The notes below the pieces were generated by a model. It saw only the letters and a list, made by a program, of their open reading frames with translations. It did not search any database and was not told the origin of the DNA. This document shows positions 13,770 to 27,750 of a DNA stretch of 64,000 nucleotides, one piece after another (position 1 is the stretch's first letter; every line of letters starts with the position of its first letter). The position numbers and the translations under genes were made by a program. The stretch is from Acidobacteriaceae bacterium (lineage in GTDB: Bacteria; Acidobacteriota; Terriglobia; Terriglobales; Acidobacteriaceae). The stretch covers positions 62,001-126,000 of the forward strand of contig JAJPKO010000045.1 of assembly GCA_021323655.1 (NCBI GenBank), read 5' to 3'.

Positions 13770-14144
13770 TTATAGATGCGCGACGGCGACAGCAATAGCG
13801 GCTGCGCCAAAATGAATGATGGCTGTGGTGATCAGCGCGGTTGCGAAGCCCTTTGCACGCAGCAGTAACGACATGACCAGTCCATAGAGAGGGAATTGCA
13901 GGTACATGAGCGCCTGGGAAAGTGTGCCCGCAATTTCTCCGGAAAAGCCGAGAACATGGGCCTGCACGAGCTGCACCCAGGGATATAGCATGCGCAGAGC
14001 ATCCGGCCCGGCCAGCGCCATGACCCCCGCTGCGCGGACAGTGAGCGGCGTTACCAGAATGCCGAGAACAAGCGGCCACCACGTGATCCACCCCGGGGAT
14101 GATTTTTTCTTCTTTCGCTTGCTGGTGGTCGTGGACGGGCTCAT
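13770..14144 (-). CDS. Small multi-span membrane protein of unknown function
   Basis: About 124 residues from the ATG at 14142-14144; in-frame ATG at 14156 and TTG at 14225 are alternatives and no candidate has a strong ribosome site. A Lys-rich N-terminal tail (TTTSKRKKKKSSPGW) precedes three or four hydrophobic helices, including PLVLGILVTPLTVRAAGVMA and LITTAIIHFGAAAIAVAVAH. No motif was recognised. It ends 13 bp before the HMGL start, suggesting one transcript. The strongly positive tail predicts a cytoplasmic N-terminus. Confidence 0.6.
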   Translation of the reverse strand: MSPSTTTSKRKKKKSSPGWITWWPLVLGILVTPLTVRAAGVMALAGPDALRMLYPWVQLVQAHVLGFSGEIAGTLSQALMYLQFPLYGLVMSLLLRAKGFATALITTAIIHFGAAAIAVAVAHL

Positions 14145-14226
14145 GAGTCTGAGCATACCGTTTGTTCTTGTGGAGAGATGTGGGATGGCGAGGAAAACTT
14201 CTGCACGATGTACCAGAACGTGCAAA

Positions 14227-14656
14227 CTACTGTCCTATGGTCGCCTTCCACTGGAAACAGAGTCCGAAACCGTCCGGTCTTTGAAGTACATTTGCTTCAT
14301 GCCATAGGGTGCAACTTCAGGAGACCGGTCAATGACGACGTCGCGAGTCGTGAACTCGGAGTAGGCGGCATCCACATCCGGACAGCCAAAGAACAGGCAA
14401 ACGTCCCGATGAAGACGTTCACCGAAATCGTCTTCTCGCGTGGGGCGTTCTTCGTCAAACTCGTAGGCCCCGTTCAGCATAAGATCTGCATGGCCCAGGC
14501 GCAGCCAGCACCAGTGAAAATGGTAAGGGTCGTCTCCACTCAGATGGGAGAGTGCTGAACAATGCTAAAGCCGAGCCGGTCCACATAAAAATGCACCGAC
14601 GCGGGCATATCATACACCTCGAAATAAGGACAAACGCCGCGGACTTCCATGGCCAT
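14227..14656 (-). pseudogene. VOC-family (glyoxalase/bleomycin-resistance-like) gene with two frameshifts
   Basis: Read on the minus strand from ATG at 14654-14656, the first frame gives MAMEVRGVCPYFEVYDMPAS then FYVDRLGFSIVQHS, the opening beta-alpha-beta of a VOC domain, and stops at 14540-14542. In a second frame the fold goes on as GDDPYHFHWCWLRLGHADLM, then CLFFGCPDVDAAYSEF and APYGMKQMYFKD. A third frame is then needed for PDGFGLCFQWKATIGQ, ending at TAG 14227-14229; one C is missing from the codons for KDPDG (near 14269-14276). The whole sequence lines up with an ordinary VOC metal-dependent enzyme of about 140 residues, so this is a recently broken gene or a doubly mis-sequenced one. 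Confidence 0.75.
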
Positions 14657-14682
14657 GAATTAAATCAGATCGCATTTTATGC

Positions 14683-14712
14683 TTGACAGTATAAATACCA
14701 TCATGATATGGG
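14683..14712 (+). promoter_or_regulatory. Candidate sigma-70 promoter upstream of the 14760 peptide
   Basis: A perfect TTGACA at 14683-14688 is followed at 18 bp by TATGGG (14707-14712), a weak -10. It faces a short ORF with a strong ribosome site at 14760. The surrounding sequence is AT-rich. The -35 match is good; the -10 is poor, and a nearby GATACT is an alternative at longer spacing. Confidence 0.35.
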
Positions 14713-14759
14713 ATTGGATACTTTGTAAGTATTTTGTGCCGGTATGAGGAGGAAATACT

Positions 14760-14873
14760 ATGCAGCCTCTCTGCGCGCGCGCACATCTTTGGATTCCTGC
14801 ATCGCTGGTTCTTTTTCTGTGTTTTCCAAGCAAGGCCCATGCCATCCAGTTGCTATTTGGTTCTCACCTCTAA
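14760..14873 (+). CDS. 37-residue secreted peptide, or N-terminus of a frameshifted Cys-rich secreted protein
   Basis: ATG at 14760 follows AGGAGG at ideal spacing. The product starts MQPLCARAHLWIPASLVLFL and ends a signal peptide at SKAHA, then stops after 37 residues (TAA 14871-14873). A +1 shift just before the stop opens a frame reading SNSVCCAIYVCPDGTTGGNC, SPCLQAKLNGAPNDYLQCAA, with six cysteines in about 40 residues, as in a disulphide-rich exported protein. That frame runs on past the start of the next gene. I read this as a small exported Cys-rich protein whose reading frame is broken by one indel, but a lone signal-peptide ORF cannot be excluded. No family was recognised. Confidence 0.4.
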   Translation: MQPLCARAHLWIPASLVLFLCFPSKAHAIQLLFGSHL

Positions 14874-15106
14874 TAGCGTATGTTGCGCGATTTACGTGTG
14901 TCCTGACGGCACTACTGGCGGCAATTGCAGTCCCTGTTTGCAGGCAAAGCTGAATGGGGCTCCGAACGACTATCTCCAATGTGCAGCGGAACCCCCAAAA
15001 AGTACTTGGTTGGTTTCAGCGAGTGCGCCAACACTCCACCGTGTCGATCATGTTGGGTCGGGGGGATTTCCGCCTATCGGTATTACAAGTGCGAAGGGAG
15101 ATATCC

Positions 15107-16000
15107 ATGAAAACCGTATCAAAGTATCTTCTGAGTGGAATGATTGTGGGCTTAGTTTTCATGTCTAGTGAAAGGGCCTATTCTGTTACGCAAATCCCAT
15201 TGGCAGTATCAGCTACGCAGCAGGAGATTGTGCTCACTGTGGACAAAGTAGCAGCGGGGGAACACTGGTCAGTTGCGATCCAGCCATCAGAAAGCTTATC
15301 GAATTCCTTTACAGTAAAGCCTGGCAGTGTAGTTTCCATGAGTACTCATCGTGCAGGTACGTATCCTGCAGATGGTATTCAGCCGTTAAGCAAGGCAAAT
15401 TATACCTTGTCAGACAGCAGTTGCCATTTGCATGAACTCTCTGGGATGCAAAAGTCCATTTATCTTATTGCCCAGGTGCCTTTAGGGAAAGTCGTCTCTG
15501 TAGTCCAGAACGGCATCCCTGTTTTTCAGGGGAAAATCACAGTACCAATTCTATTGGTAGATGGGAATATTCTTAGCAACCCCTCGATGGCAGATTTGAA
15601 GGCAGTGATGATGCTGATGGTTCCTCGATTAATTGACGATGAATTTGGCCCTGACTTAACTCAGGATGATAAAGGTGCATGGATTGCGAGCACGGATGCG
15701 CTGAGGAGGCACTTGGTTTCTTTACCAGCTTCCACCGGGCCTTTTACAAATGTTTCTTTTGATCAGGTAAATGGAGAAATGACAGCAGTCCTGCTTCGGC
15801 TCCATATTGATGCAAACGGAAGGGTTACAAACGTTTCAATTGCCAACGGGAATTCTGCCTTGGCTTCAGACGTTTCAGATGCAGTAAGCGGGGCAGTTTT
15901 TAAGCCATTTCTGTTGAACGGTAAACCTGCAGAAGTAGATGCCTTTCTTCAGTACAGCCTCGATAAGAGTGGCACATTGACAACTAATGTCACAGAGTAA
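15107..16000 (+). CDS. Secreted protein with a C-terminal TonB_C-like domain
   Basis: A 297-residue protein; ATG at 15107 follows AAGGGAG at 7 bp, so the upstream in-frame start at 14954 was rejected. It has a signal peptide (KYLLSGMIVGLVFMSSERAYS). The middle is beta-rich and Ser/Thr-rich with no known motif. The last 70 residues (VLLRLHIDANGRVTNVSIAN then SDAVSGAVFKPFLLNGKPAE) match the TonB_C pattern in which a strand with DxxGxV is followed by a helix and FxPxxxNGxPV. There is no N-terminal anchor of a classical TonB and no Pro-rich linker. Base composition is clearly more AT-rich than neighbours, suggesting acquisition by transfer. Confidence 0.7.
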   Translation: MKTVSKYLLSGMIVGLVFMSSERAYSVTQIPLAVSATQQEIVLTVDKVAAGEHWSVAIQPSESLSNSFTVKPGSVVSMSTHRAGTYPADGIQPLSKANYTLSDSSCHLHELSGMQKSIYLIAQVPLGKVVSVVQNGIPVFQGKITVPILLVDGNILSNPSMADLKAVMMLMVPRLIDDEFGPDLTQDDKGAWIASTDALRRHLVSLPASTGPFTNVSFDQVNGEMTAVLLRLHIDANGRVTNVSIANGNSALASDVSDAVSGAVFKPFLLNGKPAEVDAFLQYSLDKSGTLTTNVTE

Positions 16001-17730: not shown

Positions 17731-18774
17731 CTATTTCAGCAGACGCAGCGCATTTTCGCGGTACACCTTCCGCAGTACGTCGTCCGGAAGGTATAGTCCG
17801 TAGATGTTCCAGCGACCCTGGCGCGACGCGTGTGAAGGATATTCGAAGTACTCATCGGCGGTTTCCAGAAAGCGGAAATAGAGCCGGTACATCGTTTCTT
17901 CAGGGAGCAGATCGGTGCCGAAGAGGATCTTATCGGCAAAACGCAGGAAGAGGTCTCGCGCACTGTAAGGCTGGCGTCCCAGCTCTGATGCGCGGGCACT
18001 GATGTCAAGGTAGACGTTCGGATACGTTGCAAGCAGGTTTTTCGCCCGGGCCAGGTTTTCTCCGCTTTCAGCCACATGAGCGCACACGAACGTCGTGTTC
18101 GGATGACGCGCAATCACGCGGTCACGCTGGTCTAACAATTCCCGCTTTGAATACTGCGAGCCAGAGAAGCCCCAGTCCGGATGGGCAGCCAGCTCCTCGT
18201 ACCGCTCGTTGTGCTCATCAATGGGCAAAAAAAAGGCATCCGGATCAGCGGTGTGAAACATGACGGTAATGCCGAGTTCTGCGGCTTTATCGAAGAGTGG
18301 AGCAAGGCGCTCGTCGTCAATCCGCAGCAACTCGCCACTTGCATTACGCACGCTCAGGCCCAGGTCTTTCCAGAACTTGATGCCAACCGCGCCGCGCTCT
18401 GCCAGACGCTCCAGGCGGTCGAGCGAACGTGTGATGAAATCAGGATGCGTCACATCTGACCAGTCCATCCAGCCGATCGTGGCGAAGCGGTCTGCGTCAG
18501 CGGAATGATATTTGTCTACCATCCTAATCGCTTCTTCGCCAGTCTTCATGGTGATGTTGACCACCTTCTCGATGCCGCATGCGTCCATCACGCGCAGCAC
18601 ATCATGCGGCTCGAGCGCGTCCAGATGGTTGTGGTAATCAATGGCGGAGAAGCGCGGGCGCTCTGGCAGGTGTTCCTCTGCAACCAACATGGATTTTGGC
18701 TGAAACTTGCTTAACGGCAGGTCTACTTCTGCTTTGGCCCTCACCATGGCCACGAATTTGTCCTGATCGCTCAT
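17731..18774 (-). CDS. Amidohydrolase-2 (COG2159-like) metal-dependent hydrolase
   Basis: A 347-residue TIM-barrel protein of the amidohydrolase superfamily. An N-terminal DYHNHLD motif (H-x-H metal ligands) sits near residue 46; a lysine in GIKFWKDLGL is near 131; VMFHTADPDAFF (His ligand) near 172; FVCAHVAESGENL near 233; and ILFGTDLLPEE supplies the catalytic Asp near 288. The reaction cannot be fixed: relatives are decarboxylases, lactonases and hydrolases. It is the last gene of an operon with a DeoR regulator, PfkB kinase, symporter remnant and 51-residue protein; its ATG overlaps the upstream stop (ATGA), preceded by AAGGAGAAG. A role in sugar or sugar-acid catabolism is inferred from context. 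Confidence 0.85.
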   Translation of the reverse strand: MSDQDKFVAMVRAKAEVDLPLSKFQPKSMLVAEEHLPERPRFSAIDYHNHLDALEPHDVLRVMDACGIEKVVNITMKTGEEAIRMVDKYHSADADRFATIGWMDWSDVTHPDFITRSLDRLERLAERGAVGIKFWKDLGLSVRNASGELLRIDDERLAPLFDKAAELGITVMFHTADPDAFFLPIDEHNERYEELAAHPDWGFSGSQYSKRELLDQRDRVIARHPNTTFVCAHVAESGENLARAKNLLATYPNVYLDISARASELGRQPYSARDLFLRFADKILFGTDLLPEETMYRLYFRFLETADEYFEYPSHASRQGRWNIYGLYLPDDVLRKVYRENALRLLK

Positions 18775-18926
18775 TGCGCTTCTCCTTCGCGTTCTTTGTT
18801 GCTCAAACCAACAAACATGGATCGCAGGTCCTCAAATCCTTTTATGGCGACGATGAGTGTGATGATGGCGAACGCCGCGCCGGAGATCACGAGCCACACG
18901 GCCCAGAAACAAATCCACGCATTCAT
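18771..18926 (-). CDS. 51-residue membrane protein coupled to a symporter gene
   Basis: A short ORF with one strong membrane helix at residues 5-30 (ICFWAVWLVISGAAFAIITL) and a charged C-terminal tail (KGFEDLRSMF, NKEREGEAQ). AAGGAGAG lies just before the ATG; the start overlaps the symporter-remnant stop and the stop overlaps the amidohydrolase start, both as ATGA. This tight double coupling strongly supports translation. Placement directly after a sodium:solute symporter gene recalls small accessory proteins known for some SSS transporters, but no homology was established from sequence alone. Confidence 0.7.
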   Translation of the reverse strand: MNAWICFWAVWLVISGAAFAIITLIVAIKGFEDLRSMFVGLSNKEREGEAQ

Positions 18927-19195
18927 CGCAGCTCTCCTTCCGCCACTGCAACCTTGGCGGGCTTTCCCAGGAGCGAACCAAACAACAAACCAACTGCCGA
19001 TAAGCCGAAGGCTGCGAAGCCCGCAAAGCTCTCCGTAGCGGCCAGCGTTGCAATGCCGATATAGGTGCCCGAGTTCTCGCCCGCCACCCGAAAATGAGCG
19101 GTGTTGCCAACATACTTGCTGCCCAGCAGGCCGATCAGCAATGAAGCACCGAGATATGCGACAACGATGGTCCAGTCTACGGTGACAAAATTCAT
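18923..19195 (-). pseudogene. Sodium:solute symporter with most of the middle deleted in frame
   Basis: A 90-residue ORF. Residues 1-55 are a normal SSS N-terminus (DWTIVVAYLGASLLIGLLGS, then GENSGTYIGIATLAATE), covering the first helix and the start of the second. Residues 56-90 (SFAGFAAFGLSAVGLLFGSL then GKPAKVAVAEGELR) look like the last helix and tail. A full SSS has about 450-550 residues and 13 or more helices, so some 400 residues appear to be missing between LAATE and SFAGF, in frame. Both ends keep their ATGA overlaps with the kinase and the 51-residue gene. It cannot transport as the family does; it may be a deletion allele, an assembly collapse, or a retained miniprotein. Confidence 0.7.
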
Positions 19196-20160
19196 CGTGA
19201 CTGCATCTCCGCAGCAGCAGGAAAGTTGTGCTGCTTCAGGAATGCAGATACAAGCTCGGGGTCGCGGAAGGATTCCGTGCCCCCCGGACGCAAGGTGGAG
19301 AGCGCTCCAGCAATATTGCCAGCCTGGGCGCAGATTTCCAGCGGGAGCATGCGCAGCCACGCAGAAAGAAATCCAGCATTGAAGCTGTCCCCAGCGCCAA
19401 TTGTATCTACCGGAGTTACATGAACAGCAGGTACGTGGATCTGCGTGCCGCCTTCCTGCCCCAGCGCGCCCCGGGCCCCTTGCTTTACCACGATGCAGGG
19501 CACGCGCTTTGAAAGTACGGCGAGCGCTTCTTCCAGCGTGTCGCGTCTCGCTATGCGGCACGCTTCGGCTTCGTTCGGCAGCAAAATATCGATCAGGCCG
19601 AGAAGTTCATCCAGCACTCCATCCCATTTGTCCGCGGGATCATCGTTTGTGTCGAGGGAAATGGTCAGCCCAGCGCGCTTCAGCTCACGAAACAGATGCG
19701 GCAGGTCTGGAGCAAGACCGGTCTGCAGGTAGAGGGAAGACAGATGAAAATGACGCGATGATTTCAGGTAGGAAAGATCAAGATCGCGAAGCGTCATCGC
19801 GCTCATTGTGCCGGGATACGTAAGGATATGCCGCTCTTTGCCGTGTGTCAGCAGTACGGTGACGCCCGTCGTCTGCTTCTTGTCGTAGATGGTCCGGGAG
19901 GTGTCCACGCCGCTCGCCCCGAGCCGTTCCAGTGCGATAGACCCCAGATCATCTGAGCCGATCTGAGTGATAAAGCCTACCTTTGTGCCCAGTACGGCGA
20001 GATTGTGAGCAAGAATGGCAGAAGAACTGCCCAGCGTCGCCTTGAAATCATTCGCAAGCAGCTCTCTTTCCAGGGGCATGTTTTCGGGTAGACCGTAGAG
20101 GATCAGGTCCAGGTTGATTTCGCCTGCAATGGTGACGTCAAACATTCGTGTTACTGGCAT
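19192..20160 (-). CDS. PfkB-family sugar kinase
   Basis: A 322-residue ribokinase-fold enzyme. The PfkB signature 1 region is GSSSAILAHNLAVLGTKVGF near residue 45 and signature 2 is DTIGAGDSFNAGFLSAW near 245, with the catalytic Asp in GAGDSF and the anion hole intact. ATG at 20160 was preferred to an in-frame TTG at 20181; neither has a strong ribosome site. With agaS and an AgaR-like regulator nearby, a tagatose-6-phosphate or N-acetylgalactosamine kinase role is plausible, but PfkB specificity cannot be read from motifs. It follows the DeoR gene by 54 bp and overlaps the symporter start. Confidence 0.88.
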   Translation of the reverse strand: MPVTRMFDVTIAGEINLDLILYGLPENMPLERELLANDFKATLGSSSAILAHNLAVLGTKVGFITQIGSDDLGSIALERLGASGVDTSRTIYDKKQTTGVTVLLTHGKERHILTYPGTMSAMTLRDLDLSYLKSSRHFHLSSLYLQTGLAPDLPHLFRELKRAGLTISLDTNDDPADKWDGVLDELLGLIDILLPNEAEACRIARRDTLEEALAVLSKRVPCIVVKQGARGALGQEGGTQIHVPAVHVTPVDTIGAGDSFNAGFLSAWLRMLPLEICAQAGNIAGALSTLRPGGTESFRDPELVSAFLKQHNFPAAAEMQSR

Positions 20161-20214
20161 TTGCTCATAAATCGAAAGCAAAAGTCAATAAGAGATTAAA
20201 AGAGAAATTAACCT

Positions 20215-21051
20215 TTACACCAGGATAAGCTCAATCCCCAGCCCACGCAGGACTTCGGCATCCGTTTCAGAAAGTCCCCGATCGGTGATCACATAGTGGA
20301 CATCCGAAGGCGGCACAATTCTTGACAGGCTGCGGCGGTGGAACTTGGTGGAATCGCAGACCGCGACCACTTTTCGCGCTGCTTTCACCATGGCCCGGTT
20401 CACTCGCGACTCAAGAACATTGGGAGTGGTCAGGCCAATTTCCAGATCGAAGCCGTCAACGCCCAGAAACAAGATGTCAGCGTGCATTTCATCCAGTACG
20501 TCTTCGGCCAGTGGACCGACCAGAGAAAACGAATTCTTGCGAAGAGTGCCTCCGGTCAGGATCACGTCGAAATCTGTGCCTGCCAGATCGGCAGCAATAT
20601 TGATGGCATTCGTGATGACGGTCAGGTGCGTAAACCGGCGCAGAGCGTGTGCCACTGCGGTCGTCGTTGTTCCGGAGTCGAGCATGATGCACTGGCCTTC
20701 CTGCACCATTTTTGCGGCGGCCACGGCAATGCGCTGCTTCTCCTGCGAGTGCTGCCGCATTTTCTCCTGCAGGGACGGATCAAACATGGCTCCGGCAGAA
20801 AGCGGCAGCGCGCCGCCATGCGTGCGCTGTACAAGACCCTTGGCCTGGAGATAGTCGAGGTCTTTCCGGATTGTGATCTGCGAGATACCCAGACTCTCAG
20901 AAAGCTCATTGACCAGTACGCGGCCCTGGCTCTGCACGAGCGCCAGAATATGCTGACGGCGCTCCTCAATCAGCATGGAATCACCATCAATTTCCTTCTT
21001 GGTTGGCTTGCGCGGCACAGAAATGTCCTCACCTTGCACAATAGAATCCAT
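20215..21051 (-). CDS. DeoR/GlpR-family transcriptional regulator
   Basis: A repressor of 278 residues from ATG 21051; the in-frame ATG at 20976 would give 253, the family's usual length, starting MLIEERRQHILALVQ. The DeoR helix-turn-helix is ELSESLGISQITIRKDLDYL followed by GLVQRTHGGA. The C-terminal ISOCOT-like sensor has MLDSGTTTTAVAHAL and DVILTGGTLRKNSFSLVGP, the phosphosugar-binding loops. Members sense a phosphorylated intermediate of the pathway they control. It heads the kinase/amidohydrolase operon and is the natural candidate to bind the operator-like site in front of agaS, 3.4 kb away. Confidence 0.9.
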   Translation of the reverse strand: MDSIVQGEDISVPRKPTKKEIDGDSMLIEERRQHILALVQSQGRVLVNELSESLGISQITIRKDLDYLQAKGLVQRTHGGALPLSAGAMFDPSLQEKMRQHSQEKQRIAVAAAKMVQEGQCIMLDSGTTTTAVAHALRRFTHLTVITNAINIAADLAGTDFDVILTGGTLRKNSFSLVGPLAEDVLDEMHADILFLGVDGFDLEIGLTTPNVLESRVNRAMVKAARKVVAVCDSTKFHRRSLSRIVPPSDVHYVITDRGLSETDAEVLRGLGIELILV

Positions 21052-21099: not shown

Positions 21100-21670
21100 T
21101 TATTTACCAGCCGTTTCCGGTAAGGTGATGTCCGGCGCATGCCCGCTGGCTGGCCGATTGAGTACGTCGTTGTATTCGATGGATTCAGGCTTGAACCCTC
21201 CATTGGTCAGATAGAAGCGGTCCCCCACCACACCTGCACCACGGTCGAGGCGGTCTTTGTACTTGCCCACGGCAGTGTGCGTAAAACGGGCCTTCGTCAG
21301 CTCAATCCAGTGGTTGTCAGTGGTCTTGATCCACTGATTGCCGAACTCGGCCAGCCTTTGCTGCTGCCCGTTCGCCCCCCAGAAGTCTTCATTAAAGGAA
21401 TTAAGATGGCGCAGGTATCCACCATCTTTCGGCGCACGGAAGCCGGCAATCAATCCCAATGTCTGCTTTTCCTGGAAATAAAAATACGCTGTGTAGATGG
21501 TTGCTGTACCATCCGGCTGCGCGCTTACGAGGAAGCGGTAAGTTTCGCCGGTCTTCCAGGGATAGACAAGATGGCTGTGTCCGCCCGTGCCTTCATTGCC
21601 GAAGCTTTCCGCTACCACATCCGGTCCTTTTGCCAGCAACTGCACGCGGTCTTCAGCAGTTGCGCTGTAA
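21100..21670 (-). pseudogene. C-terminal remnant of a DUF3472-domain secreted protein
   Basis: About 190 residues in one frame, from AEDRVQLLAKGPDVVAESFG through GNEGTGGHSHLVYPWKTGET, FWGANGQQQRLAEFGNQWIK and VVGDRFYLTNGGFKPES to the stop at 21100. This is the C-terminal half of DUF3472 proteins (a beta-sandwich found in secreted carbohydrate-related proteins). The N-terminal half and start codon are absent: immediately upstream the sequence is TonB-receptor coding in another frame. The gene was therefore fused to the receptor by a deletion. No start codon with a ribosome site exists for the remnant. Confidence 0.75.
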
Positions 21671-24170
21671 TTCAGTAATGCCAGTAAATTGCGGATAGGG
21701 GCGCGCAAGTTGATAATGCGAAATTTTGGCGTTCGTTCCGAGGCTGCCTGCAACGCCTTTTATCCCATAGAAAGGATTCGGGGCAAGACCCTGGCACTGT
21801 CCCTGCGGGTACGGATTGGAAGCCGTGCCAAGAGTTGCGTTGCAGTTCTTGTAAAGGGCCAGATTCGAATCCAGCGCCGTGTAGCTAACATTCATGCCAT
21901 AGCCCTGGCTCATGACATAGCTGATCTCGAACTTGCCATCATGCGGCATGACCTGCTCAATGCCAAGCGATCCATTGATGACCGAAGGCAGCTTGTAATG
22001 CGGATTTGCAAAGGTGACAGATTTTCCGAGGTACGTCATCAGACCCTGTGACGCGCCAGGAATCGGCGGAATTCCAGCGGGAAAACGGGTTGCTGAGGTT
22101 GTCAGGGTAGTACGTGCGTCCGCCATCCGGTGAGTTTGTATATGAGGGATTGTTAGTAAAGCCGGCAGCTTGAGGGTTGTTGGTCGGGCTCATAACAATA
22201 CGGCCCGCTCCTCCGCGCACGACGGTTCCCTGAAGTGCCTGCCATGCAAAGCCAATGCGTGGCTGCCATTTGGTGTAATCCTGCGCCCAGGGCAGACTCG
22301 AATGGGACGTGTTGGGAAACAGAATTCCACCCTTAAGCGTAGGTAGGCCCGTGCTGTGGTCCACCAAATCGTTGATTGGGTTGACTGCGTTAAAGTCGAA
22401 TCCAGTATTTAGCCAGTTATGGCGAGCCGTCGGCGGCCCGTTCAGGTCATAGCGGAAACCAAGATTCAAAGTGAATTTTGGCGTGATCTTCCAGTCATCC
22501 TGGATCCAGGGAGCATAGTAGTGCTGCGTGTAATACGGGAAAAGCTGGTTCTGCACGGCAACGCTGTTCGGCTGCCCGATTAGAAAATCGAGAACGGCGT
22601 TACCGCTGCCGCTTTGTGAAAGCGGGGTCCCATCTGGCAATGCAGGGATGTCATTCGAATCATTCTGGTCCCAATACTCAGATGTAGCAATTCCATTGCT
22701 GGAGAAGGACACGATGTTCTGATATTGGAATATCTGGTTCAAGTGCGAGATGCGGAAGTCAAGTCCAGCGCGAAGATTGTGCTGCCTTTGTTCCAGGTAA
22801 TGGTCGGTGCCAGGTTGTAGCTGTCATCCGGCATGTAATAAAAATCGCGCGACATGGCCAGCAAGTTGTTGTACCCGTTTCCGGTTCCAGTGGACTGCTG
22901 TTGCATGTTGAAGTTGACTTCAGGGAAGCCCTTCTTCAGCGGAAGCTGGCCCAACAGAGAAGCAGGAAATCCTAGCTGCGCCGGATCATAGTTGAGATTG
23001 GCCGCGATGGGACATCGGTTCTCCAGTAGCGCTGATAGCTAACGCGTACATCGGAAATGAGATTTGGCCGGAACGTATGCACCCAATCCAGGCCGGTATT
23101 CATGTGGTATTCGGTGAAGGTGCTGCCATTGAACCACGGAACATTTTCTGGAGTATTTGGCTGATAAGAAGGGTTTCGGCTGCGTATCCAGCTTCCTGAG
23201 ATGTGGTCCCTGCTTCCAAGTACCTGATCAATTTTCAAAACATAGTTCTGAGAACTGGCAGTCTGCGGAATCGTGTTGATCCATATCTGTTCCCACGGCA
23301 GTTCGTTCGGAAAACGCATGGAGGTGGGCTTCGCGGAGGCGAGCATCAGGCTTACGATCTGACCGCGATCGGATTCAGACGGCTCGGATCTACATGATTG
23401 TATTGACCGGCAGAGTTCTGGAAAATCTGGCGGGTCGGGTCCTGCGTAGTAGCGGTAAAAGGGTCAAATACCGGCATCAGAGCGCCAGATGAATCTACGA
23501 AGTTCGAGAAATCACCCTGAAGCCATGCGGCGTTCGGGATGTCGTAGGTCTGGAAGGTGGGCAGTACTTCCTTGAACCGCTCAAAGTTGAACATAAAGAA
23601 GTCTTGTCGTGCCCGTTATACAGCCAGGGAATGTAAACCGGACCGGACACCTCAAATCCATACTGGTCTTCCGTGTGAGCGGGGCGGTTTTGACCCACAT
23701 AGGTTGTTCTCCCAGCTATTGGCGTCCTTAAAGCCGCGCTTGGCAAATTCATATGCTGAGCCATGCTTTTCCGTATCCAGCCCGACCTGATAGCTCTCGC
23801 TGTTTACGGTCACCTCCTGCGCGGCTGAACCGACCTGCAAAATAAAGTCCGCAGTTTGCTTCTGCGAAACGGTCAGGACCACGGGAGGATAAGTCATCTT
23901 CTTGAAGCCGGGTGCTTCGGCACTGACTTCCAGTTTCTGCCCAGGAGTGAGGTAAGGCACAACGTAGACGCCCGCGCTGTTGGTTTGCACCGCAATCGTC
24001 TGGTTCGTGTCCAGATCGCGAACCGTAACTTTTGCGCCAGGAATGACCGCCTTGCTCGGATCAGTTACCGTTCCCGTAATGGTCGCGCGGTAATCCTGCC
24101 CCCAGCAAAGGCCTGCAAGACCAAACGCCAGGAGCGCCATGAGGATAAAGGAGTTGTAACGCCGAAACAT
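21653..24170 (-). pseudogene. Oar-like TonB-dependent receptor, multiply frameshifted and internally deleted
   Basis: From ATG at 24168-24170 (ribosome site GGAGG) it encodes a signal peptide (FILMALLAFGLAGLCWGQ), a carboxypeptidase-regulatory domain (ATITGTVTDPSKAVIPGAKV), then ESYQVGLDTE, where the plug should begin. The sequence jumps in frame to HGSAYEFAKRGFKDANSW, losing most of the plug, then breaks again at NSW. At least five more indels follow on the + coordinates: one T missing near 23598-23601, one A near 23356-23361, one C near 23009-23011, one base near 22764-22769, and an extra T at 22082-22085. Barrel strands are readable between (YYAPWIQDDWKITPKFTLNL, QPRIGFAWQALQGTVVRGGA). It ends at ELQRNC, fused to the DUF3472 remnant, so the last 250 or so residues of the barrel are missing. 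Confidence 0.85.
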
Positions 24171-24541: not shown

Positions 24542-25768
24542 ATGCTGAAGATGGAAGGAGTAAACCGCTTGCAGGACGCGCTCTCAGCCCTGCTTTTATT
24601 GCCCGATGGTGAGAAAAAGGCACGCGGCCTGACGGATACCCCGCGTGAAATCCAGCAACAACCCGAAACCTGGCTCGGTACCCTCGAGCGGCTCAACGCT
24701 GTCCAGGCTCCGCTCTTGAAGTTTCTGGAGGGTTGCGGTTTTTTCGCAGGTTCCGCTGCGCAACCGGATGTGATTCTCACCGGTGCGGGTACTTCCGACT
24801 ATATTGGCCGCGCGGTGGTCCCGGTTCTGCGGCAGCAGTGGAGATGCAATGTCTCGGCTGTTCCCAGCACCACTCTGCTTACCCATATGGAAGAGCACAT
24901 TCTGCCGGACAGGCAATACCTGATGGTCTCCTTCTCGCGTTCGGGACAGAGTTCGGAGGGCATCGCTGTCATGGAGCAGGCGATCCTGTCTTTTCCGGGC
25001 CATGTTCATCATCTGGTAGTCACGTGTAATCAGTACGGCCCGATGGCGCAGTTCCCCGGCGTCTTCACCATCACGCTTGACGACGCGGTAAACGATCGCG
25101 GTCTGGCGATGACCAGCTCATTTTCGAACATGGTCGTAGCTGGACAGTACCTTGCCTTCATTCGCAATTCGCAGAAGTATGCGCCCTTGCTGAAAGAACT
25201 CGTCCGTATGGGTGAAGATCTGCTGCCGCAGGCCGCCAATATGGCTTCTGCTCTGGCGAAAAAGAAGTTCTCGCGCGTGTGCTTTCTGGGTGGTGGGGCA
25301 TTGCAGGGGGTGGCCCAGGAGTCCGCGCTTAAAGTGCTCGAGCTGAATGCCGGAAAAATCCCTACATTGGCCGAGTCGTTTCTGGGTTTGCGCCACGGGC
25401 CCATGTCCTTCCTGAATAAGGAAACACTGGTGGTCGCGTTTCTTTCAGGAGACGAAGACCGCCTGCCGTATGAGCTGGACCTGCTGGATGAGATTCGCAC
25501 CAAAGACCTCGCCGAAGATATGGTGGTGGTTGCCCCGCGCGTTACAAGCCGCGTCCGGCAACTCACCAGCCATGCTCTACCGCTGCACGCAACACTGGAT
25601 TTTCCAGATACCTGCCGTCCTCCGTTGGATGTGATTGCCGCCCAATTGTTGGCCCTCTTCTTTGCCATAGAAAACGGCATTACGCCGGACACGCCCAGCG
25701 CTGGCGCCATCAGCCGCGTAGTTTCCCACGTAAAGATTTATTCCCCCGCCGGAAGGACCGGAAAATGA
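24542..25768 (+). CDS. agaS: AgaS-type SIS-domain sugar isomerase/deaminase
   Basis: A 408-residue protein with two SIS domains. ILTGAGTSDYIGRAVVP near residue 78 and SFSRSGQSSEGIA near 132 are SIS phosphosugar loops; FLGGGALQGVAQESALKVLE and FLGLRHGPMSFLN follow in the second domain; the C-terminal ITPDTPSAGAISRVVSHVKI matches E. coli AgaS closely. AgaS converts galactosamine-6-phosphate to tagatose-6-phosphate with ammonia release. No ribosome site precedes ATG 24542, but GGAAGGAG inside the frame is 7 bp before an in-frame TTG at 24569 (codon 10), which may be the true start. The stop overlaps the glycosidase start (ATGA). Probably repressed by the DeoR regulator. Confidence 0.9.
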   Translation: MLKMEGVNRLQDALSALLLLPDGEKKARGLTDTPREIQQQPETWLGTLERLNAVQAPLLKFLEGCGFFAGSAAQPDVILTGAGTSDYIGRAVVPVLRQQWRCNVSAVPSTTLLTHMEEHILPDRQYLMVSFSRSGQSSEGIAVMEQAILSFPGHVHHLVVTCNQYGPMAQFPGVFTITLDDAVNDRGLAMTSSFSNMVVAGQYLAFIRNSQKYAPLLKELVRMGEDLLPQAANMASALAKKKFSRVCFLGGGALQGVAQESALKVLELNAGKIPTLAESFLGLRHGPMSFLNKETLVVAFLSGDEDRLPYELDLLDEIRTKDLAEDMVVVAPRVTSRVRQLTSHALPLHATLDFPDTCRPPLDVIAAQLLALFFAIENGITPDTPSAGAISRVVSHVKIYSPAGRTGK

Positions 25769-27750
25769 TGAAAGTGAAATTTGCGCCTGTGTGTGCATTG
25801 TTTCTTGCGGCTTCCCTTTATGCGCAGGATGCCGGGAAGGCCACTGCTGTAACACATGGGACCAGCTACAAACTTGCTGACCATGAGATCGAAGCCGCCT
25901 GGAGTGTTGCAGGTGGAAAGCTGGGCGGACTTGCTGTTACAGACAAGCTGAATGGCGAAGTCATTCGCATAAACGATCCTTTTGCCATTCTGCTGAAGGA
26001 CGGCACGATCTATAACGCAGCCAATGTGCATGCAGATGGCCAGCCGCAGATGCGCGCCCTCACACCAGAACCCAATGCCTCGCGCTACTCTGACCGGCTG
26101 CCGGGCAAGAAGTTTGATCTGCCTCTGGTGAGCAACGATGGCAAACTGCATCTCAAATGGTCCGTTGTGTTGCGCGACGGCTCAAATTATGTGCGGCAAA
26201 TGCTGACCATCACCGCGGGGGAACAGGATGCCCCCATCACTCGCGTCGAACTGATTGACGTTGATCTCCCCGGCGCGCGAGTAGATGGTTCCGTAAAGGG
26301 TTCGCCCATTGTTGCAGGAACGGTCTTTCTCGGCTTCGAGCATCCGCTGTGTGACAGCAAAGTGGTTGGCAGTCGCGCCACGGCTGTCATGGACCGCGAG
26401 CTTCCGCTGAAAGCAGGACAGTTGGTCACATATTCATCTGTGATCGGCATAACACATCCCGGACAGTTGCGCCGCGATTTCCTAAACTACATTGAGCGCG
26501 AGCGGGCACATCCATACCGCACCTTTCTGCATTACAACTCCTGGTACGATCTCGGATACTTCAATCCTTACGACGAGGCCGGAGCGCTGGATCGTATCAA
26601 CACCTTTGGTCGTGAGCTACATGAAAAGCGAGGCGTGACGCTTGATTCGTATCTGTTCGACGACGGATGGGACAATCACGCATCGCTTTGGGACTTCAAC
26701 AAAGGCTTCCCGGATGGCTTTACTAAAGTGCATGAAGCGGCGCAGAAGTATGGCGCAGGGCCGGGAGTCTGGATGTCTCCCTGGGGCGGATACGATGGCC
26801 CGAAGAAAGAGCGCGTCGCCTATGGCAAAGAGCAGGGCTATGAGATTGTGGACGGTGGCTTCGCCCTGTCCGGCCCGAAGTATTACGCGCGTTTTCGCGA
26901 TGTCTGTCTGGAGATGATCCGCAAGTACGGCATAAACCAGTTCAAGTTTGACGGCACCGGAAACGCTGATTCTGTGTTCCCCGGCAGCACGTTTGACAGT
27001 GACTTCTCCGCAGCCATTCATTTGATTGGCGAGCTGCGCGAGGCCAAGCCGGACATCTACATCAACCTGACGACAGGTACCTACCCGTCGCCGTTCTGGC
27101 TCCTCTACGCCGATTCCATCTGGCGCGGCGGATGGGACGACAACGTTGCAGGAGTCGGGTCTTATCGCGAGCGCTGGATTACATATCGCGATGCCGATAC
27201 TTACGAAGAAATCGTGAAGGGCGGTCCGCTGTACCCGCTGAATTCGCTGATGCTACACGGCCTGATCTATGCGCAACACCATAAGCACCTCAATGCTGAT
27301 CCTCAAAATGATTTCCGCAATGAGATTCGCAGCTATTTTGGGACTGGAACGCAATTGCAGGAGATGTACATCACCCCATCTCTGCTGAACCAGCAAAATT
27401 GGGACGACCTGGCCGAAGCCGCGAAGTGGTCCCGCGACAATGCCCAGGTGCTGAAAGATACGCACTGGGTAGGCGGTGATCCTGCATGGCTGGAAGTTTA
27501 CGGATGGGCTTCCTGGACGCCGAAGAAAGGCATTCTCGTCTTGCGTAACCCAAGCGACAAGCCGCAGAGTATTCGCATTGATGTGCAGGATGCTTTCGAG
27601 CTGCCGCCAGGAGCTCCGCAAAGCTATACGGCGAAGAGCCCCTGGAAGGACGATGCAAATAAGCCCATCATTGAACTGCGGGCACACACGCCGCACGAGT
27701 TCCAGCTCGCTCCGTTTGAAGTGCTCACACTGGATGCAGAACCGCGCTAG
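25765..27750 (+). CDS. Secreted clan GH-D glycoside hydrolase (alpha-galactosidase / alpha-N-acetylgalactosaminidase-like)
   Basis: A 661-residue protein with a signal peptide (VKFAPVCALFLAASLYAQ), an N-terminal beta-sandwich, a TIM barrel from about residue 250 and a C-terminal beta domain. Motifs fit clan GH-D: YLFDDGWDNHASLWDF near 297; INQFKFDGTGNADSVF near 395, in which the Asp of KFDG is the expected nucleophile; and YADSIWRGGWDDN near 455 for the acid/base. It would release alpha-linked galactose-type sugars outside the cytoplasm. Coupling by ATGA to agaS argues for a GalNAc- or galactosamine-containing substrate. Similar proteins are sometimes mislabelled enterotoxin. The exact GH family was not resolved. 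Confidence 0.82.
   Translation: MMKVKFAPVCALFLAASLYAQDAGKATAVTHGTSYKLADHEIEAAWSVAGGKLGGLAVTDKLNGEVIRINDPFAILLKDGTIYNAANVHADGQPQMRALTPEPNASRYSDRLPGKKFDLPLVSNDGKLHLKWSVVLRDGSNYVRQMLTITAGEQDAPITRVELIDVDLPGARVDGSVKGSPIVAGTVFLGFEHPLCDSKVVGSRATAVMDRELPLKAGQLVTYSSVIGITHPGQLRRDFLNYIERERAHPYRTFLHYNSWYDLGYFNPYDEAGALDRINTFGRELHEKRGVTLDSYLFDDGWDNHASLWDFNKGFPDGFTKVHEAAQKYGAGPGVWMSPWGGYDGPKKERVAYGKEQGYEIVDGGFALSGPKYYARFRDVCLEMIRKYGINQFKFDGTGNADSVFPGSTFDSDFSAAIHLIGELREAKPDIYINLTTGTYPSPFWLLYADSIWRGGWDDNVAGVGSYRERWITYRDADTYEEIVKGGPLYPLNSLMLHGLIYAQHHKHLNADPQNDFRNEIRSYFGTGTQLQEMYITPSLLNQQNWDDLAEAAKWSRDNAQVLKDTHWVGGDPAWLEVYGWASWTPKKGILVLRNPSDKPQSIRIDVQDAFELPPGAPQSYTAKSPWKDDANKPIIELRAHTPHEFQLAPFEVLTLDAEPR

Follow-up and report, generated by a model that had tools for sequence, protein, structure and literature searches.

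Remnants of a TonB-dependent receptor gene and a DUF3472 gene as a probable young pseudogene pair in a putative amino-sugar locus of an Acidobacteriaceae bacterium

The analyzed stretch of DNA (the window, 64,000 nucleotides) covers positions 62001-126000 of contig 3 in a 4.59-Mb draft assembly of 65 contigs and carries the broken remains of two adjacent genes, one for an Oar-like TonB-dependent receptor and one for a DUF3472 protein. We read them, with a probability of about 0.88, as a young pseudogene pair, in which the receptor and the DUF3472 gene were inactivated by deletions and indels and a symporter gene of the same amino-sugar locus was lost separately. The lesions can be placed in the DNA, relatives show the two genes intact and in a fixed order, and the neighboring genes have whole frames. 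Such a pair is an ordinary kind of gene decay; the point added here concerns the locus, which has three broken uptake genes and keeps the frames of the rest whole.

The receptor remnant (21659..24170, minus strand) was delimited by Pfam matches of its fragments and by frameshift-aware alignment to the receptors of two relatives, G066 and G128. It keeps the N-terminal CarboxypepD_reg domain (E 1e-18) and part of the OMP_b-brl_4 barrel (E 5e-39), without the plug and without the barrel end, and falls short of an Oar-like receptor defined by CarboxypepD_reg, plug and complete barrel. We take the name Oar to apply to these acidobacterial receptors with the Pfam domains CarboxypepD_reg, Plug and OMP_b-brl_4. 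The C-terminal half of a DUF3472 protein follows on the minus strand (21100..21657; Pfam PF11958, E 3e-59), and its open frame of 217 codons (21100-21753) extends back into receptor DNA. It covers positions 86-268 of the 269 of the profile, against 6-268 in an intact relative; the DUF5077 domain is absent, as is roughly the initial third of DUF3472 itself, and the remaining part is 78.6% identical to the G066 protein over 187 aa. These matches and alignments agree with the preliminary description, which had reported a receptor remnant joined to the C-terminal half of a DUF3472 protein; by the analysis, the former runs from 24170 to about 21658 and the latter from 21657 to 21100.

Lesions were called by protein-to-DNA alignment allowing frameshifts, against the receptor and DUF3472 protein of G066 and, separately, of G128, leaving out small in-frame differences of one to three residues. 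Eight lesions were found: two large deletions, four single-base losses and two single-base gains, the six indels being placed identically by the two alignments to within 3 bases. The first deletion, at 23764..23766 (minus strand), is in frame and removes 124 codons (372 bp) that correspond to residues 136-259 of the G066 receptor, numbered from the second Met. They span its Pfam Plug match (170-277 of the 1259-aa frame, or 140-247 counted from the second Met), as expected from the earlier claim that most of the plug was lost in frame. Directly past an NSWEN motif, a single-base gain near 23705 (23690..23720, minus strand) shifts the frame by +1. A second in-frame loss had been proposed here, at NSW, and is rejected: beyond the motif both alignments continue through clearly similar residues, and the frame slips by +1 with nothing missing. 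Four single-base losses follow near 23602, 23357, 23013 and 22787 (within 22770..23620, minus strand; same sites against both relatives to within 3 bases), and the second gain, also a +1 shift, lies near 22085 within a short T run (22070..22100, minus strand). The alignment to G128 called an extra +1 near 21114, in the last DUF3472 residues, that is absent from the alignment to G066; it was taken as an end effect, the C-termini differing there, and left out of the lesions.

The second large deletion joins receptor codon ~964 to DUF3472 codon ~245 at 21656..21659 (minus strand), with the frame broken. The tract missing at 21658 comprises 509 codons, among them the last 265 of the receptor, and the intergenic gap, which amounts to about 1.6 kb on G066 (795 + 3 + 88 + 732) and about 1.8 kb on G128 (795 + 3 + 234 + 732). 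The missing barrel end, with a join previously put at about 21655-21670, is thus confirmed, and a single deletion spanning from the receptor into the DUF3472 gene is supported by three relatives (G066, G128 and G302) in which both genes are adjacent, on one strand and in the same order. The receptor frame reaches a stop about two codons beyond the join and the DUF3472 part is in a different frame; the two genes are therefore fused, as formerly stated, in the DNA only, and an in-frame receptor-DUF3472 fusion protein is rejected. No stop was found among the aligned codons of the receptor and DUF3472 except the natural DUF3472 end. The preliminary description had proposed a frameshift-aware alignment to the full genes of relatives, and this alignment confirms the remnants and the deletions. 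Its view of a multiply broken receptor stands, but not its count of seven lesions with five 1-nt indels, as the NSW loss was mistaken and one indel was missed. With six frame breaks and without plug and barrel end, the remnant cannot make a receptor.

In G066, G128 and G302 the receptor gene is followed on the same strand by the adjacent DUF3472 gene, both intact, with receptor open frames of 1,231-1,262 aa. The receptors of G066 and G128 carry CarboxypepD_reg, Plug and OMP_b-brl_4 according to Pfam, and their DUF3472 proteins have 431 and 440 aa, respectively, that of G066 consisting of DUF5077 and DUF3472 domains. Family searches were made on samples of genomes with part of the candidates per genome scored, and their counts are lower bounds: the kept barrel part was matched at E<=1e-40 in at least six of 200 family genomes and the DUF3472 part at E<=1e-10 in at least four of 200, own genome included in both. 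The best barrel matches among the candidates scored were those of G066 (80% identity) and G128 (76%). A DNA search of 398 family genomes matched at least six, own included, and adds G200, where a second receptor-like frame sits between receptor and DUF3472, G302, and G309, with a DUF3472 match only; relatives are about 70-73% alike to the window in DNA. Titles returned by a literature search on DUF3472 included none on its function in bacteria; the name occurs 12 times in the searched text of a paper on centipede venom genes acquired from bacteria and fungi (PMC7864903).

The draft of the own genome, which may be incomplete, gave no second close receptor copy at E<=1e-40 (13 of 72 candidates scored) and no second DUF3472 copy at E<=1e-10 (4 of 4 scored), and a DNA search of it returned one other match, of 53 bases. 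The remnants therefore show disabling lesions against intact orthologues and no intact close copy in their own genome, as unitary pseudogenes do; the third mark of these, relaxed selection, was not seen. In the same-genus genome G001, no receptor at E<=1e-40 and no DUF3472 at 1e-10 were found among the candidates scored, nor a symporter remnant at 1e-6 or an AgaS-like protein at 1e-70, so that G001 could not date the losses; its DNA matches of 68-69% fall on part of the amidohydrolase gene.

A short homopolymer holds at least one of the gains, and the six indels are accompanied neither by a raised number of replacement changes nor by a nonsense substitution, as would be expected if the indels, and perhaps the deletions, were artefacts of a draft in 65 contigs and the genes were whole in the organism. 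We consider this improbable. The large losses hit the same pair of genes as the small ones, and 19 other window genes (about 23 kb), including those flanking the receptor on both sides, showed no frameshift inside their open frames in the same frameshift-aware alignment to relatives (G001, G066, G070 or G159). Because these 19 genes are free of frameshifts, uniform sequencing error appears unlikely; if indels were evenly spread, the chance that six of six fall in 2.5 of about 25.5 kb is about 1e-6 by simple arithmetic. This control took genes with a fetched relative of >=150 aa, E<=1e-30 and identity >=55%, ignored calls <=12 residues from an alignment end and omits three antisense frames (L091_-9892, L092_-10356 and L030_+4515, of which the last had three stops and three frameshifts). 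The open frames of the window do not include the sites of two further frameshifts, called for L137 (residue 74) and the L030 PfkB (residue 24), nor those of two stops called for L138. Furthermore, at least 59 matches to the OMP_b-brl_4 barrel family were counted in the 4.6-Mb own genome. Of these, 54 were listed, none with a stop inside the match, and four of them lie in open frames shorter than 1,000 aa; a gene that a frameshift had broken into two separate matches would escape this control. The number of barrel-family matches is about equal to the 60 listed for a 3.7-Mb genome of the same genus.

Substitutions private to one lineage were counted over 827 columns in which the remaining lineages are identical. 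The window receptor showed 26 private replacement and 26 synonymous changes (ratio 1.00), lower than the ratios of all four intact relatives, G066 (22/14, 1.57), G128 (39/16, 2.44), G200 (30/13, 2.31) and G302 (62/20, 3.10), and no relaxed selection was thus seen in it; nor does it carry a nonsense substitution. For the DUF3472 part the counts are too small (4 and 0). The intact neighbors in the window, SIS (14/7), the 661-aa gene (10/20), PfkB (3/5) and amidohydrolase (9/12), show no excess either, and for this reason the test does not distinguish retained genes from those lost recently. The substitution table of DeoR was left unused, as its L030 row (110 private replacements) came from a wrong overlapping frame. 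The G302 receptor shows a mild replacement excess (62/20, p 0.03), and the 661-aa gene shows one in L035 (48/9, p 6e-6).

Given neither a replacement excess nor a nonsense change, the decay looks recent. This record speaks against an old pseudogene, giving no sign of long neutral drift, and leaves recent decay, indel-rich decay or unreal indels as the options. The low receptor ratio alone would fit an artefact too; together with the deletions, it fits recent decay.

The third broken uptake gene is the remnant of a symporter (18924..19195, minus strand), recognized by comparison with intact relatives; its frame of 90 aa gave no Pfam match and is what we take to be of the SSF type. Four intact relatives have symporters of 499-506 aa, with exactly 410 codons between two conserved Glu codons in all four, so that the remnant of 90 codons results from an in-frame deletion of 1,230 bp, separate from those of the receptor. 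All four relatives show GARA at both ends of the tract lost in the window, the two ends being identical to each other in three of them, and the window reads GAGA. Under random breakpoints, at least four shared bases are expected about 1.6% of the time (simple arithmetic, for one of three junctions looked at). On these sequence grounds, the symporter deletion would be best explained by slippage or joining at GARA and fits a short-homology deletion. At the plug and receptor-DUF3472 junctions, from none to about five shared bases are possible, with relatives differing at the deciding bases; the expectation that the deletion ends would reveal the mechanism was therefore not borne out for the receptor-DUF3472 deletion, the nearby one in the symporter gene telling more. 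Three large deletions within about 5 kb might also be the work of a mobile element, since departed, which seems very improbable to us, as in the junction contexts compared the sequence on both sides of each join resembles that of relatives. In the reading of the plug junction, nine loci were covered; the context left of the deletion was found in two of them and that right of it in five, L042 being, judged by length, the same contig as L031.

Both the 217-codon DUF3472 frame and the 90-codon symporter frame are open, and the latter keeps its overlaps with the kinase gene before it and the 51-aa ORF after it. A short functional product from either remnant would accord with this preserved frame, with these overlaps and with the conservation of the DUF3472 part noted above (78.6% over 187 aa). 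We nevertheless regard such continued use as highly unlikely: the DUF3472 frame has lost DUF5077 and roughly the initial third of DUF3472, a deletion stays in frame by chance one time in three, and recent decay explains the conservation.

The pair lies between an AgaR-like and an AgaS-like gene in a group with whole frames. On the minus strand these are an amidohydrolase (17731..18774; Pfam PF04909, full length against L091 and L092), a small conserved ORF of 51 aa (18771..18926; 48-76% identity in L091-L095), which in relatives comes next after the symporter, a PfkB-type sugar kinase (19192..20181; profile match and alignment to relatives) and a DeoR-type regulator (20215..21051), which passes the NCBIfam AgaR equivalog cut-off (NF040755, 268.2 vs 260 bits). 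On the plus strand, divergent from the receptor, an AgaS-like SIS-domain protein (24542..25768) reaches 275.7 bits with TIGR02815, below the cut-off of 529.2, and is named AgaS-like only; it is followed by a 661-aa protein (25765..27750), found beside AgaS-like genes in several relatives. This protein has no Pfam, NCBIfam or PDB match at the thresholds used and by eye looks like a glycosidase. Elsewhere in the window, positions 14001-16000 have a GC content of 0.495, against about 0.57 around them, and an ORF at 14954-16000 resembles, on inspection by eye, a TonB C-terminal protein.

The gene order recurs in G159 and G070, two genomes of one genus: SIS and the 661-aa gene diverge from DeoR-PfkB-SSF-small-amidohydrolase, with no intact receptor between SIS and DeoR. 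G302 has DUF3472, receptor, 661-aa gene, PfkB and an AgaS-like SIS gene (49% identical) within about 11 kb. The receptor and DUF3472 of G066, G128 and G200 are on contigs other than those of the best AgaS-like genes, some of these contigs being short, and the tie to the locus consequently rests on the window and G302. From this gene order, the receptor and DUF3472 likely belong to the amino-sugar locus.

The slot of the receptor was surveyed in 45 AgaS-like loci, 40 chosen by score and contig size from matches in 138 genomes and five fetched earlier. A receptor-like open frame of at least 1,000 aa was present somewhere in the stretch in 16 of the 45, receptor pieces lie by SIS in two more (L092 and L035), matches cut by contig ends being left unjudged, and the symporter was found in two (L091 and L092). 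The 783-bp SIS-DeoR gap of G070 (L092, 6188-6970) contains two short collinear receptor matches (23 aa, E 1e-5; 42 aa, E 0.003; very small database) and may hint at a receptor decayed further at the same spot. In G128 (L035, 6248-8180), the receptor by SIS is split, with its N-terminal part on the plus and its barrel end on the minus strand, possibly a rearranged receptor or a misassembly, this genome being a MAG. The SIS-DeoR gap of G159 measures 146 bp and contains no receptor, and G302 keeps an intact receptor in the slot beside the AgaS-like gene. This distribution suggests that receptors turn over at AgaS-like loci.

In the course of events that we propose for the pseudogene pair, the receptor, and with it the DUF3472 protein of the next gene, probably served an AgaR/AgaS-type amino-sugar locus, and once the substrate was no longer used, the uptake genes would have been released and lost. 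The plug deletion, the deletion of about 1.6-1.8 kb across both genes and the six indels would have inactivated the pair, and the separate in-frame deletion would have removed the SSF-type symporter; RecA-independent joining at very short homology may have produced the deletions. A broader and tentative idea, which we hold to be rather doubtful, is that the locus is turning from scavenging to internal use, with the receptor, its DUF3472 partner and the symporter lost separately, the regulator and enzymes kept, and the slot broken or empty in other genera too. It considers the uptake genes identified at the locus; against it, G302 keeps its receptor in the slot, and retained and recently lost genes look alike in the substitution test.

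If the reading as a young pseudogene pair holds, the window would offer a small, datable case of the dismantling of a sugar-use locus in an acidobacterium, in which uptake genes go first and enzymes later or never, through deletions and indels and not through nonsense changes. It would also mark a trap for annotation, in which the remnant frames of DUF3472 and the symporter would pass for short genes. Our searches found no literature on TonB-dependent pseudogenes or TonB-dependent N-acetylgalactosamine uptake in acidobacteria, and one on indels, frameshifts and deletion bias in bacterial pseudogenes likewise found nothing.

Compared with known systems, the window falls short of DUF5077-DUF3472 proteins of known structure (PDB 4qhw; DUF3472 entries 8pmu, 8pn3 and 8pn5): its C-terminal half matches 4qhw over 34-209 (E 7e-38), against 59-423 for the intact G066 protein, the N-terminal domain and about the first third of DUF3472 being absent. 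Against the Oar-like receptors of G066 and G128, its N-terminus and barrel part score with the first and last domains, with plug and barrel end gone and six frame breaks. The N-acetylgalactosamine pathway reconstructed in Shewanella is tabulated with agaS, agaK, an agaA and, for transport, agaP and omp-Aga, and another omp protein, Omp-Bgl, is described in that source as a TonB-dependent transporter (PMC2996990). Similarly, genes for an AgaS-like protein, a sugar kinase, an amidohydrolase, a transporter and a receptor lie together in the window, the kinase and amidohydrolase being putative counterparts by type and the substrate being putative as well. Unlike the Shewanella pathway, whose table row has no 661-aa protein, DUF3472 or regulator, the window has its transporter and receptor broken.
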